Origin: an uncultured Gaiellaceae bacterium | Lineage (GTDB): Bacteria; Actinomycetota; Thermoleophilia; Gaiellales; Gaiellaceae | Assembly (NCBI GenBank): GCA_955652075.1 | Contig: CATPAS010000276.1 | Span: forward strand, 1-11,555 | DNA: 11,555 nt | Direction of reading: 5' to 3' | In this document: in pieces, positions 3,891-11,555 of the stretch | Numbering within the stretch: the first letter of the stretch is position 1 | Layout: each line of letters opens with the position of its first letter | Made by a program: the position numbers and the translations under genes | Notes under the pieces: generated by a model | What the model was told of the DNA's origin: nothing | The model's input: the letters and a program-made list of their open reading frames with translations, nothing else | Database searches by the model: none

Positions 3891-5113
3891 TCGCGCTCGA
3901 GACGACCGTGCTCGACAGGCTCGGCAACGTCGAGGCGCGCGCCGACAGCTTTACCGGCGTGCAGGTCGACTCGCGGCGCGTCGCGCCCGGAGATCTCTTC
4001 GTCGCCGTGGGCGGCGGATCGGCATTCGTGGACGACGCGCTCATCCGTGGCGCAGCGGTGACGCTCGAGCCACACGACGCCTTCGCAGCTCTTGCCCACG
4101 TCGCGAGAGAGGTCCGCGAACGGAGCTCCGCGCGCATCGTGGCCATCACGGGCTCGATGGGCAAGACGTCGACGAAGGACATCCTCGCCGCGTTGAGTGC
4201 TCCGTCTGCCCGGACGATCGCAGCCGAGGCCAGCTTCAACAACGAGATCGGGGTGCCGCTGACGCTCTGCCGCCTCGAAGAGGACACGGAGGTCTGCATC
4301 CTCGAGCTGGCGATGCGCGGCTTCGGCCAGATCGCCACGCTCGCCGAGATTGCTCAGCCGCAGATCGGTGTCGTGACGAACGTCGGTCCCGTTCACCTCG
4401 AGCTCGTCGACTCGCTGGACGGAGTCGCACGCGCGAAGGGCGAGCTCATCGCCGCGCTTCCCGCGGGCGGCACCGCGATCGTGCCCGTGGACTTTCCGGT
4501 CTCCCGCGACGACGTCGAGGTCGTCCGGGTCGGCGCACAGGAGGCGATTCGCGTGGAGGGGCGAACGGTCGTCGGCGGAGTGAGCTTCAACTTCACCGCG
4601 CAGCACCAGGTCGAGAACGCAGCGACCGCGCTTGCCGCGTTGACCGCCCTCGGCCTGCCCCGGCCGGAGTCCGTCGACGTGGATTTCGCCCGGTGGCGGG
4701 GGGAGGAGCAGGAGCTCCCCGGCGGGGGCCTCCTCATCAACGACGCTTACAACGCCAACCCCGTCTCCATGCGCGCGGCGCTCGCCTATCTCGCGGAGCG
4801 GGCCGGGGCCCGGCGACGCGTGGCGATCCTCGGCGACATGGCCGAGCTGGGGCGCACGGGCCCGGAATATCACCGGGAGGTCGGCGCCGCGGCGGCCGAG
4901 CTCGGCGTGGACGAGCTCCTCGCCGTTGGCGAGCTGGCCCGCGGGTACCTTGAGGCCGGCGTCCCCGGTCGCTGGGTCGCAAACGTCCACGACGCGCTGC
5001 GTCAGGTGGACGAGCTCGTCCGCCCGGGCGACGCGGTGCTCGTGAAGGCGTCGCGGGCCGTCGGTCTCGAAGCTGTGGCAGCCGCTCTCACTCAGATCCC
5101 AACGACGACGTGA
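3887..5113 (+). CDS. murF: MurF, UDP-MurNAc-tripeptide:D-Ala-D-Ala ligase
   Basis: A 408-residue cytoplasmic ligase that adds D-Ala-D-Ala to finish the UDP-MurNAc-pentapeptide. Motifs are DSRRVAPGDLFVAVGG (28-43), the P-loop GSMGKTST (89-96), FNNEIGVPLTL (117-127), TNVGPVHLE (164-172), the carbamyl-lysine segment ARAKGEL (K184), NDAYNANP (285-292), AILGDMAELG (313-322) and VLVKASRAVGLE (384-395). The N-terminal uridine-binding domain and the central domain are both shorter than in typical MurF (about 450-480 residues). The usual G-x-H-N-x-x-N motif reads AQHQVEN (238-244). The GTG start at 3887 overlaps the murE stop as GTGA and has a G-run (3875-3879) at ribosome-site distance. It ends in the same kind of overlap with mraY. 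Confidence 0.94.
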   Translation: MIALETTVLDRLGNVEARADSFTGVQVDSRRVAPGDLFVAVGGGSAFVDDALIRGAAVTLEPHDAFAALAHVAREVRERSSARIVAITGSMGKTSTKDILAALSAPSARTIAAEASFNNEIGVPLTLCRLEEDTEVCILELAMRGFGQIATLAEIAQPQIGVVTNVGPVHLELVDSLDGVARAKGELIAALPAGGTAIVPVDFPVSRDDVEVVRVGAQEAIRVEGRTVVGGVSFNFTAQHQVENAATALAALTALGLPRPESVDVDFARWRGEEQELPGGGLLINDAYNANPVSMRAALAYLAERAGARRRVAILGDMAELGRTGPEYHREVGAAAAELGVDELLAVGELARGYLEAGVPGRWVANVHDALRQVDELVRPGDAVLVKASRAVGLEAVAAALTQIPTTT

Positions 5114-6120
5114 TCCGCGTCCTTGCCGCGGGAGTGGTCGCGATGATCGTGTCGATCGTGGTCGGTCCCAAGTTCATCGAGTTTTTGCGCAGAAACGAGT
5201 TCGGCCAGCACATCCGTGCCGAGGGACCGGAAGGCCACGGCGTCAAGCAGGGAACGCCGACAATGGGCGGACTGTTGATCCTCGTCGTCGCGACGGGTGC
5301 GTTTCTCGCCTTCTCGAAGTACAAGGTCCCGGCACTCACCGTGCTCTTCGTTACGCTCGGCTGCGGGGCGATCGGGTTTCTCGACGACTTCATCAAGCTC
5401 ACGCACCGGCGGTCCCTCGGGTTGCGCGGACGCTGGAAGATGCTGCTGCTCGCCCTGATCACCGTCGGTGTCGGCTTCGCAGCGGATCACCAGCAGCTCC
5501 CCACGACCGTCTTCATCCCCCTCGTGCACTGGAACGTCGCGCTGTCGTGGGGCTGGTACGTGCTGCTGTTTCTCGTGATCGCCGGGACCGCGAACGGCGT
5601 CAACCTCACCGACGGCGTCGACGGCCTCGGGGCCGGAACCGGGATCATCGCGCTGATCACGTTCACGGCGATCTCGGTCGTGACCTACATCCGTTCCGGC
5701 AATCCCGGCGGGCGCTTCGACAGCCGCCTCGATCTCGCCATCGTCGGTGCCGCACTCATCGGAGCCACGATTGGATTTCTCTGGTACAACGCGTTCCCTG
5801 CCGAGCTGATCATGGGCGACACCGGAGCAATGGCGATCGGCGGCGCCCTGGCCGCGATGGCGATCTTCACGCAGACGATCTTCCTGCTCCTTTTCATCGG
5901 CGGGATCTTCGCGATCGAGGCGCTCTCCGTGATCGTGCAGGTCGTCTCCTTCAAGTACTACGGCCGCCGCGTCTTTCTGATGGCGCCGATCCACCACCAC
6001 TTCGAGATGAAGGCGTGGTCCGAGACGAAGATCATGGTGCGCTTCTGGATCATCACCGCGATCCTTTGTGCGATCGGCTTTGCCCTCTTCTACCGCGACT
6101 TCACGTTCTTCCGACACTGA
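5110..6120 (+). CDS. mraY: MraY, phospho-MurNAc-pentapeptide transferase
   Basis: A 336-residue polytopic inner-membrane enzyme, with about ten spans, that transfers phospho-MurNAc-pentapeptide from UDP to undecaprenyl phosphate to make lipid I. The Mg-dependent catalytic motifs are all present: the acidic pair D92-D93 in GFLDDFIK, NLTDGVDGL (165-173), D237 in MGDTGAMAIGG (235-245; GDTGS is more common), and the HHH loop APIHHHFEMK (292-301) followed by WSETKIMVRFW (303-313). It also has the KQGTPTMGG substrate loop (46-54). The length is close to the family norm, though on the short side. The GTG start at 5110 overlaps the murF stop (GTGA). The next gene probably begins inside its stop codon. 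It links the soluble Mur steps to the membrane steps. Confidence 0.97.
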   Translation: MIRVLAAGVVAMIVSIVVGPKFIEFLRRNEFGQHIRAEGPEGHGVKQGTPTMGGLLILVVATGAFLAFSKYKVPALTVLFVTLGCGAIGFLDDFIKLTHRRSLGLRGRWKMLLLALITVGVGFAADHQQLPTTVFIPLVHWNVALSWGWYVLLFLVIAGTANGVNLTDGVDGLGAGTGIIALITFTAISVVTYIRSGNPGGRFDSRLDLAIVGAALIGATIGFLWYNAFPAELIMGDTGAMAIGGALAAMAIFTQTIFLLLFIGGIFAIEALSVIVQVVSFKYYGRRVFLMAPIHHHFEMKAWSETKIMVRFWIITAILCAIGFALFYRDFTFFRH

Positions 6121-6575
6121 GCGGAGAACTCGAAGCACTCGTTCGGCCCGGTGAGACCGTCGTCGCCGTGGGGGCAGCCGAGCTGACGGAGAGGCTCGCC
6201 AAGCGAGTCGCGCCCGACGGAGACGTGCTCCTCGTCGACGAATCCGTCGACGAGCTCGAACGGGTGCTCACGAGCGCGCCGGGCCCAAATGTCTTCTACC
6301 TCGTCGGCGTCGCGGACGTGCTTCCGCTCACGGACGGGAGCGTGGATGCAGTCATGAGCGGAGTCGCCGTGACCGAGGCCGCGCCGGCCGAGTTCTTCCG
6401 CGTCCTCCGGGACCGTGGGCGGATCTGGGTCTCGGCGGACGACCAGGACCCGCGGGGCTCGGCGTTGAACCTAGAGCCTTGTGAGGTCGAGCGACTCTTC
6501 AACGACTCCGGATTCGCCGGCGTGACCGTCGAGTCGGCAGACGGCCGGGTCTCGGTCGCCGCGCACAAGCCGTGA
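6117..6575 (+). CDS. class I SAM-methyltransferase-fold protein, degenerate, unknown role
   Basis: A 152-residue protein with the order of motifs of a type-11/UbiE-like class I methyltransferase: motif I region ETVVAVGAAE (13-22), the acidic ribose-binding position in VLLVDES (D41), GVADVLPLTDGSVDAVMSG (64-82), the strand-turn FFRVLRDRGRIWVS (93-106), and a C-terminal helix-strand ending VSVAAHKP. The glycine-rich loop, normally DxGxGxG, keeps only one glycine (G19), so SAM binding and catalysis are doubtful. No ATG or GTG lies at a sensible place; a GTG at 6168 would cut into motif I. CTG at 6117 forms a CTGA overlap with the mraY stop, like the GTGA overlaps elsewhere here; an in-frame TTG at 6066 is the alternative. 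It overlaps murD by GTGA. Its partner or substrate is unknown. That it is a real gene is clear; its start is not. Confidence 0.72.
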   Translation: MSGELEALVRPGETVVAVGAAELTERLAKRVAPDGDVLLVDESVDELERVLTSAPGPNVFYLVGVADVLPLTDGSVDAVMSGVAVTEAAPAEFFRVLRDRGRIWVSADDQDPRGSALNLEPCEVERLFNDSGFAGVTVESADGRVSVAAHKP

Positions 6576-7825
6576 AGCTTCCGCGCCGGGCGCTCGTCCT
6601 GGGGCTCGCGCGCTCCGGTCAGGCAGCCGCCCTGGCGCTCGCCCGCCGTGGCGTGCCCACTGTGGGCGCCGACCGGGCAGAGGGCCTGGACACCGGGAGG
6701 CTTGCCGAAGCAGGCGTCGAAGTCCACCTGGGGACTGAGGAGGAAGGTCTGCTGGACGACGTCGAGTTGCTCATCAAGAGCCCGGGCGTGCCCGGGGAGT
6801 CGCCGCTGGCAGCGGCCGCGCGCACGCGTGGGATCCCGATCTGGAGCGAGGTCGAGCTCGGCTTCCGCTTGCTGCGCAACCCTTTCGTCGGGATCACGGG
6901 AACGAACGGGAAGACGACGACCAGCGAGCTGCTCGGCGCGATGTTCCGCGCCGCCGGCAGGCCGGTCGCCGTCGCCGGGAACGTCGGTCGCCCGCTCACG
7001 AGCTTCGATGGGACGCTCGAGAAGGAAGCCTGGATCGTGTGTGAGCTGTCGAGCTTTCAACTCGAGGACATGCACCGCCTGCGTCCCCGCGTAGCCGTGC
7101 TGCTCAACCTCGAACCGGACCACCTCGACCGCCATGGTTCCTACGAGGCCTACAAGGACGCGAAGCTGCGCATCTTCGAGAACCAGACCGAGGCCGACGT
7201 CGCCGTTGTCCCGCGCGACTTCGGAGCAGTGCCCGGCGGCGCCGACCGGGTCGAGTTTCGAGCGGACGATTCGCTTCCCGCCGAGCCGCTCATCCCCGGC
7301 GAGCACAACCGTGAGAACGCGGCCGCTGCGACCGCCGCCGCTCGCGCTGCAGGAGTCCAGGAAGACGCGATCGCAGAAGCGCTGCGCATGTTTCCGGGCG
7401 TCGAGCACCGGCTGGAGCTGGTGGGCGAGCTCGACGGCGTTCGCTTCGTCAACGACTCGAAGGCGACGAACACGGCCGCGGCCCGTCGAGGCATCGCGGC
7501 CTTTGCCGGCCAGCCGCTGCGCCTGATTCTCGGAGGCTCGTTGAAGGGCGAATCGTTCGACGAGCTCGCCGAAGGACTTCCGGCCTCGGTGCGCTCGATC
7601 GACCTCATCGGCGAAGCGACGGAGGACCTGGCGGCGTCACTCGGTCGTGCAGGACGCTCGTTCCGGCGTTCCGGCGATCTCGCAACCGCCCTGGGCGCTG
7701 CCGCGGGAGACGCCGAGCCGGGTGACGTCGTGCTCCTGTCTCCGGCGTGCGCGAGCTATGACCAATTCCGCGACTTCGAGGAACGTGGTGAGACGTTCCG
7801 CCGGCTCGTCGGGGAGTTGTGGTGA
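6572..7825 (+). CDS. murD: MurD, UDP-MurNAc-L-alanine:D-glutamate ligase
   Basis: A 417-residue cytoplasmic ligase that adds D-glutamate to UDP-MurNAc-L-Ala. The N-terminal Rossmann-like domain has LVLGLARSGQAA (8-19) and LLIKSPGVP (66-74). The ATPase domain has GTNGKTTT (110-117), CELSSFQLE (157-165), EPDHLDRHG (181-189) and the carbamyl-lysine region (K198). The GEHNRENAAAA motif is at 243-253, EHRLE at 278-282 and NDSKATN at 294-300. The C-terminal domain has GGSLKG (321-326), where GGxDKG is more common, and SPACASYDQFRDFEERG (390-406). The central domain is shortened between about residues 214 and 240. GTG at 6572 overlaps the preceding stop as GTGA; there is no good ribosome site, which fits coupled translation. 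Confidence 0.96.
   Translation: MKLPRRALVLGLARSGQAAALALARRGVPTVGADRAEGLDTGRLAEAGVEVHLGTEEEGLLDDVELLIKSPGVPGESPLAAAARTRGIPIWSEVELGFRLLRNPFVGITGTNGKTTTSELLGAMFRAAGRPVAVAGNVGRPLTSFDGTLEKEAWIVCELSSFQLEDMHRLRPRVAVLLNLEPDHLDRHGSYEAYKDAKLRIFENQTEADVAVVPRDFGAVPGGADRVEFRADDSLPAEPLIPGEHNRENAAAATAAARAAGVQEDAIAEALRMFPGVEHRLELVGELDGVRFVNDSKATNTAAARRGIAAFAGQPLRLILGGSLKGESFDELAEGLPASVRSIDLIGEATEDLAASLGRAGRSFRRSGDLATALGAAAGDAEPGDVVLLSPACASYDQFRDFEERGETFRRLVGELW
7811..7816 (+). promoter_or_regulatory. ribosome binding site deciding the ftsW start
   Basis: GGGGAG lies inside the last codons of murD. It is 5 bases from the GTG at 7822 but only 2 bases from the adjacent in-frame GTG at 7819. The spacing favours 7822, which also reproduces the GTGA stop/start overlap seen at other junctions of this cluster. 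Confidence 0.5.
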
Positions 7826-11434: not shown

Positions 11435-11555
11435 CACCCTCAGACCCTGCTCGACGTGCTTGCGACGGGCGACCACGGCAGCGACCCGATCATTGAACGT
11501 GATGGGCGACGATCCGGGCGGTCCCGAAAGGCACTTCTGCAGGCCGGCCGAGGCC
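11435..11555 (-). CDS. internal fragment of an alanine/serine-glyoxylate-type aminotransferase (class V, PLP)
   Basis: Read on the minus strand from base 11554, the last ~120 bases encode about 38 residues including GLQKCLSGPPGSSPITF, then NDR and RRKHVEQGLR. This resembles the PLP-lysine segment (QKCLxGPPGxxPITxxDR) of the fold-type I, class V aminotransferase group that contains alanine-glyoxylate, serine-glyoxylate and ureidoglycine-glyoxylate aminotransferases; the Schiff-base lysine would be the codon at 11536-11534. The gene is cut at the window edge and also stops matching at about 11438, where plus-strand murB sequence begins. It has no place in a dcw cluster. The family call is from memory of the motif and covers only a short piece, so the exact enzyme is open. 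Confidence 0.6.

Follow-up and report, generated by a model that had tools for sequence, protein, structure and literature searches.

The 11,555-nt stretch analysed here (the window; positions 1 to 11,555 of contig CATPAS010000276.1, from an uncultured Gaiellaceae bacterium) contains, between mraY and murD of its division and cell wall (dcw) cluster, a reading frame of 152 codons, here called X. A preliminary description of the window had placed this frame at 6117-6575 and had it overlapping murD. The placement was borne out, X sharing CTGA with the end of mraY and GTGA with the start of murD. The features of the locus are as follows.

5110..6120, + strand: mraY, upstream neighbour of X (Pfam Glycos_transf_4, MraY_sig1)
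6117..6575, + strand: X, methyltransferase-fold protein in reduced form (152 residues and a stop codon), probably started at CTG
6117..6120, + strand: CTGA shared by X (CTG start) and mraY (TGA stop)
6159..6182, + strand: remnant of S-adenosylmethionine (SAM) motif I, VVAVGAAE, X residues 15-22, from comparison with full-length relatives
6237..6239, + strand: acidic residue D41 of X, kept at the end of strand 2
6288..6347, + strand: best kept block of X, NVFYLVGVADVLPLTDGSVD, residues 58-77, from (nearly) invariant alignment columns
6572..6575, + strand: GTGA shared by murD (GTG start) and X (TGA stop)
6572..7825, + strand: murD, downstream neighbour of X (Pfam Mur_ligase_M, Mur_ligase_C, MurD-like_N)

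The methyltransferase blocks noticed at first inspection were confirmed by Pfam, X matching Methyltransf_25 (E 1.6e-7; 32.4 bits, cut-off 27) and Methyltransf_11 (E 1.1e-6; 29.6 bits, cut-off 21.2), and the Rossmann-like core fold is nearly complete. The earlier view of X as a methyltransferase fold with a broken SAM loop was likewise supported. Motif I retains a single glycine (VVAVGAAE), and compared with full-length relatives (DVGTGTG in genome G004) X has lost the acid and is two residues shorter in the glycine loop, so that it does not contain [DE]xGxGxG. Scores against the model NF008823 are 26.6 bits for X and 69.1 bits for the full-length G004 protein, both below the cut-off of 263. 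Because X lacks motif I and falls short of the NCBIfam cut-offs, it was not filed as an active methyltransferase. By descent, X is, as judged from its sequence, one of the UbiE/arsenite methyltransferase (ArsM)-like class I methyltransferases (NF008823, TIGR01934; Pfam Methyltransf_11/25), with which it shares fold and sequence core. Motif I is kept in the full-length forms of this family at the same locus, whereas the reduced forms lack motif I, the substrate part and the C-terminal part.

To define where the gene occurs, 103 genomes of the family were scanned; mraY was located in 93, murD in 92, and 71 junctions were tabulated. Relatives of X lie at the junction in 22 of these 71 genomes and in four of 32 genera: 7/8 genomes of the window's own genus (g1), 1/1 of g21, 1/1 of g36 and 13/13 of g41, with none in the other 28 genera. 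The place between mraY and murD, which the preliminary description had proposed to tabulate, is taken by X in part of the family, the junction being devoid of X in all seven order-level genomes outside the family (same table). On these counts, X was rejected as a general dcw gene of the order or of Thermoleophilia. No further case at a located junction emerged when whole genomes were searched with the full-length protein (103 genomes of the family, E <= 1e-25) or with the mini form (129 genomes of the order, E <= 1e-6). Several database homologues carry Gaiellaceae names at NCBI and one is labelled Acidobacteriota. In one species of g1 (G005), X is missing and murD directly overlaps mraY; a dosage matched to the Mur pathway, as once suggested for X, is therefore not implied. 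Three genomes in which tblastn misplaced murD (G012, G031, G033) were counted as lacking X, and tblastn with X found nothing in the large junction gaps of G012, G024 and G032. The junction of three g38 genomes (G086, G089, G091; loci L174, L176, L177) holds what, judged by its sequence, is a putative EamA-type transporter, which indicates that X is not the only gene to have entered the junction. The gap in G085 encodes a small secreted-looking protein.

The 22 junction proteins form a graded size series. Full-length forms are found in G004, G064, G115 and G111 (274, 278, 283 and 271 amino acids) and an intermediate one in G116 (224). Mid forms occur in G000, G008, G009 and G007 (152, 152, 146 and 138 amino acids) and in five g41 genomes (156-159); mini forms occur in G001, G006 and G029 (86, 82 and 80) and in five other g41 genomes (83-85). 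Alignment showed that the N-terminal region, the C-terminal subdomain and most of what follows strand 5 are missing from both mid groups. The glycine loop of mid forms is two residues shorter, in G007 only one, and the block around YLVG..VLPL.D is kept together with the last strand. In the five g41 mid forms the acid of strand 2 is replaced by arginine. Mini forms retain about half of the core and end after strand 4 with similar termini (ARVLR, ARVTR, ARVKAP).

Protein length and presence of motif I are tightly linked, with the caveat given below on late gene calls. The motif [DE]xGxGxG is present in 4/4 full-length junction forms and 0/18 reduced ones. Among database proteins it occurs in 7/7 long and 0/22 short proteins, although the latter count is partly trivial, since the gene calls of several of the 22 start after motif I. 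It is found in 113 of 114 further database matches, the exception being P0050 (170 amino acids), and in none of 120 listed homologues of the mini form.

The mini form has many homologues, a search with it returning 568 clusters at E <= 0.001. None of the 120 listed homologues has a Pfam domain and, where named, they are called 'hypothetical protein', except for two 'phospholipid N-methyltransferase' entries (P0235, P0254). Over 52 of them that were aligned, mean column identity is 74% and 35 residues are invariant, including G9 and E30, which stand at the places of the glycine loop and the strand-2 acid. At the level of the order, all 16 genomic matches lie at the mraY-murD locus. An 83-residue Gaiellaceae 'hypothetical protein' (P0152) and its relatives resemble X in locus and in having the homologous core block and differ from it in comprising about half of that core. 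In the gene tree they branch apart from the close relatives of X, though the g1 reduced forms are found on their side.

How often the gene shrank was examined with two trees. One was built from MraY and MurD (78 genomes, 719 columns; the misplaced MurD sequences were left out, and the G017 and G064 MraY, with stops in the read frame, were entered with X at those positions). In this tree full-length and reduced forms are interleaved: G004, with its form of 274 residues, pairs with G001, whose form has 86 (support 100), and full-length G115 is the sister of the g41 mid clade (support 97). In the tree of the gene itself (46 rows, 83 columns; three of six non-dcw paralogues, L226, L227 and L228, left out), a branch supported at 99/99 separates all minis and the g1 reduced forms from the rest, while the g41 mid forms, themselves a clade (100/99), are nested among full-length forms. 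Approximately unbiased (AU) tests on these columns rejected a single clade of all reduced forms (p 0.0205) and of g1 mid with g41 mid forms (p 0.000321), p values weakened by the groups having been named after the first tree was seen; a single shrinkage event was thus rejected. The interleaving and these rejections support at least two in-frame reductions at the junction.

The reduced genes behave as protein-coding. Comparison of G000 with G008 gave a ratio of nonsynonymous to synonymous substitution rates (dN/dS) of 0.27 (bootstrap 0.16-0.43, Fisher p 1.5e-8), against 1.17 and 2.82 in the two other frames, so X is not simply a reading frame left open by GC-rich composition. True-frame values by the Nei-Gojobori method (NG86) were 0.27-0.57 for g1 mid (6 pairs), 0.15-0.32 for g41 mid (10 pairs) and 0.11-0.51 for g41 mini forms (10 pairs), while the two wrong frames of the same 26 pairs all gave values above 1. 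No internal stop was found in any of the 22 junction frames. Purifying selection on an open frame, a check proposed at the outset, was thus supported (dN/dS 0.11-0.57; 22/22 frames open). Synonymous distances are of similar size to the mraY and murD ones for these pairs and give no sign of extra constraint at the nucleotide level. In wider comparisons, full-length G004 against mini G001 gave 0.22 with a synonymous distance of 1.6, near saturation, and full-length forms between genera gave 0.46-0.77 at high divergence. Searching eight junction loci returned no Rfam family at the gathering threshold, and a structured RNA at the junction was rejected.

A peculiarity of the locus is the start of X. 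The codon at 6117 is CTG, not ATG, GTG or TTG, and the nearest in-frame alternative upstream is a TTG within mraY (about 6066). Database gene calls of homologues begin late (P0002, from residue 18) or upstream, inside mraY (P0003, P0037). CTG stands at the mraY overlap in the seven g1 members with X and in G064; at the same offset all 13 g41 genomes have ATG or GTG, which in G117 yields only three codons, a second ATG coming after. The G029 gene has an ATG start 166 bases downstream of the overlap position. In all, the overlap with mraY is found in 20/22 junction members and that with murD in 7/7 g1 members; in g41 a stretch of 24-221 bases intervenes before murD. This arrangement makes it likely that X is initiated at CTG by reinitiation, a start inside mraY being the alternative. 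Spacers of exactly 164 bases lie between the mid-size gene and murD in five g41 genomes (L181-L185). They contain a G+C-rich hairpin-like stretch, without Rfam match in the two searched (L181, L182), and may serve murD as an internal promoter or attenuator. Separately, in G005, G010, G061 and G063 (L038, L043, L220, L201) murD itself apparently starts at CTG, in a CTGA that also holds the stop of mraY. The nearest upstream ATG, GTG or TTG in G005 lies 51 bases back, inside mraY, and G061 (g14) has none in frame for >400 bases; a CTG start of this essential gene is thus possible in the four genomes.

Altogether, with a conserved cofactor motif absent and the protein under purifying selection, a pseudoenzyme appears to be the best reading left for X. 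As a whole, the data are probably best explained by a methyltransferase trimmed repeatedly into a small non-enzymatic protein under selection. Its ancestor, a full-length class I SAM methyltransferase of UbiE/ArsM-like type, would have settled between mraY and murD in a group of Gaiellaceae-type bacteria. The gene would have been cut in frame at least twice, with loss of the N-terminal region, one or two glycine-loop residues, most of the post-strand-5 segment and the C-terminal subdomain, leaving a bare Rossmann core (138-159 amino acids, as in the window) or about half of it (80-86). The product, presumably incapable of the usual SAM binding or methylation, would most likely act by touching MraY or MurD, which the neighbouring genes encode, or some other wall enzyme, and would be made in step with its neighbours through termination-reinitiation. 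Position alone suggests the tie to lipid I synthesis or MurD. A more detailed version, namely repeated and largely same-cut conversion to a minimal Rossmann pseudoenzyme, as far as a conserved family of 83 residues, that serves as a dedicated regulatory or scaffold subunit of the MraY-MurD step and is reinitiated, at CTG in the window's genus, is put forward tentatively, as possible rather than probable.

Several results weigh against this explanation. X is dispensable in G005, and the g41 spacers mean that its coupling to murD is not general. The AU tests and the gene tree use only 83 columns, and a single clade of all minis was not rejected (p 0.356). The gene tree conflicts with the MraY-MurD tree in placing the G001 mini with the G009 mid form and not with its sister species G004, which may reflect further shrinkage events, transfer of the locus from one lineage to another, a tree artefact, or convergence that pulls the reduced forms together. 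The single g1 mini pair (G006-G001) has a dN/dS of 0.65, without a wrong-frame control. In the g1 mid pairs mraY and murD show 0.05-0.16, well below the values of X, so that constraint on X is moderate in g1; in g41 mid forms it is close to that on murD (0.15-0.20). Finally, D41 is kept in X, and SAM may be bound by another geometry.

Among the alternatives, a translation relay, in which only an open coupled frame is kept to pass ribosomes from mraY to murD and a gene without use is worn away through deletions that spare the frame, would account for the 22 open frames, the overlaps with mraY and, in g1, with murD, the graded shrinkage and the loss in G005. It is unlikely in view of the true-frame dN/dS values against those of wrong frames, synonymous distances like those of mraY and murD, the 74% mean identity over 52 minis and the spacers ahead of murD in g41. 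We are equally doubtful of a small-molecule sensor, a Rossmann half whose nucleotide site signals to MraY or MurD how much of a cofactor or precursor is present: the invariant G9 and E30 of the minis fit such a site, whereas the strand-2 acid is lost in the g41 mid forms. That X is a divergent, active methyltransferase, binding SAM through an altered loop and using a wall precursor or lipid as substrate, agrees with the nearly complete core, with D41 in the window form and with the intact appearance of full-length relatives at the locus. The idea becomes improbable given that none of the 18 reduced forms has motif I, that most of the post-strand-5 segment and the C-terminal subdomain are lost, that five g41 mid forms carry arginine for the strand-2 acid and that minis have only about half the core. 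An ordinary decaying pseudogene, to which shrinkage, loss of the cofactor motif and loss of the gene in G005 could point, is very improbable with 22 frames free of stops, dN/dS well below 1 in 26 pairs and many conserved mini homologues.

Elsewhere in the window, a DUF4260 gene (2117-2545, - strand; Pfam E 2e-40) is placed between a penicillin-binding protein gene and murE, overlapping the start of the listed murE frame. At the contig end (about 11450-11555) the sequence does not continue in the way expected of MurB; this is possibly an assembly end artefact.

Pseudoenzymes of methyltransferase fold are known. In the Trypanosoma PRMT1 prozyme, as in X, the fold is kept, the cofactor motif lost and the protein conserved; X differs in being far smaller, bacterial and in a dcw cluster, and 6dnz was only a middling structural match of the mini model. 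Unlike the PRMT1 enzyme-prozyme pair, a full-length gene of the same family outside the junction was found in only two of 18 reduced-form genomes (G121, G122) and in none of the six g1 genomes with reduced forms (E <= 1e-25; genomes incomplete), and a prozyme acting on such a partner is disfavoured. By analogy, X would work like a pseudoenzyme, an already known kind; judged by titles and abstract openings, full-text literature searches turned up no account of this mraY-murD locus or of repeated stripping to a core or half core within a dcw cluster. If the explanation holds, the locus, flanked by two essential genes, would provide a natural series in which an enzyme is whittled down to a core without enzymatic function, and since full-length, mid-size, minimal and absent states occur in close relatives, what pseudoenzymes keep would become testable. 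It would also explain how an 83-residue protein, mostly labelled 'hypothetical' and lacking domain annotation, arose in evolution, and possibly point to a new factor at the lipid I/MurD step in a large, mostly uncultured soil group.
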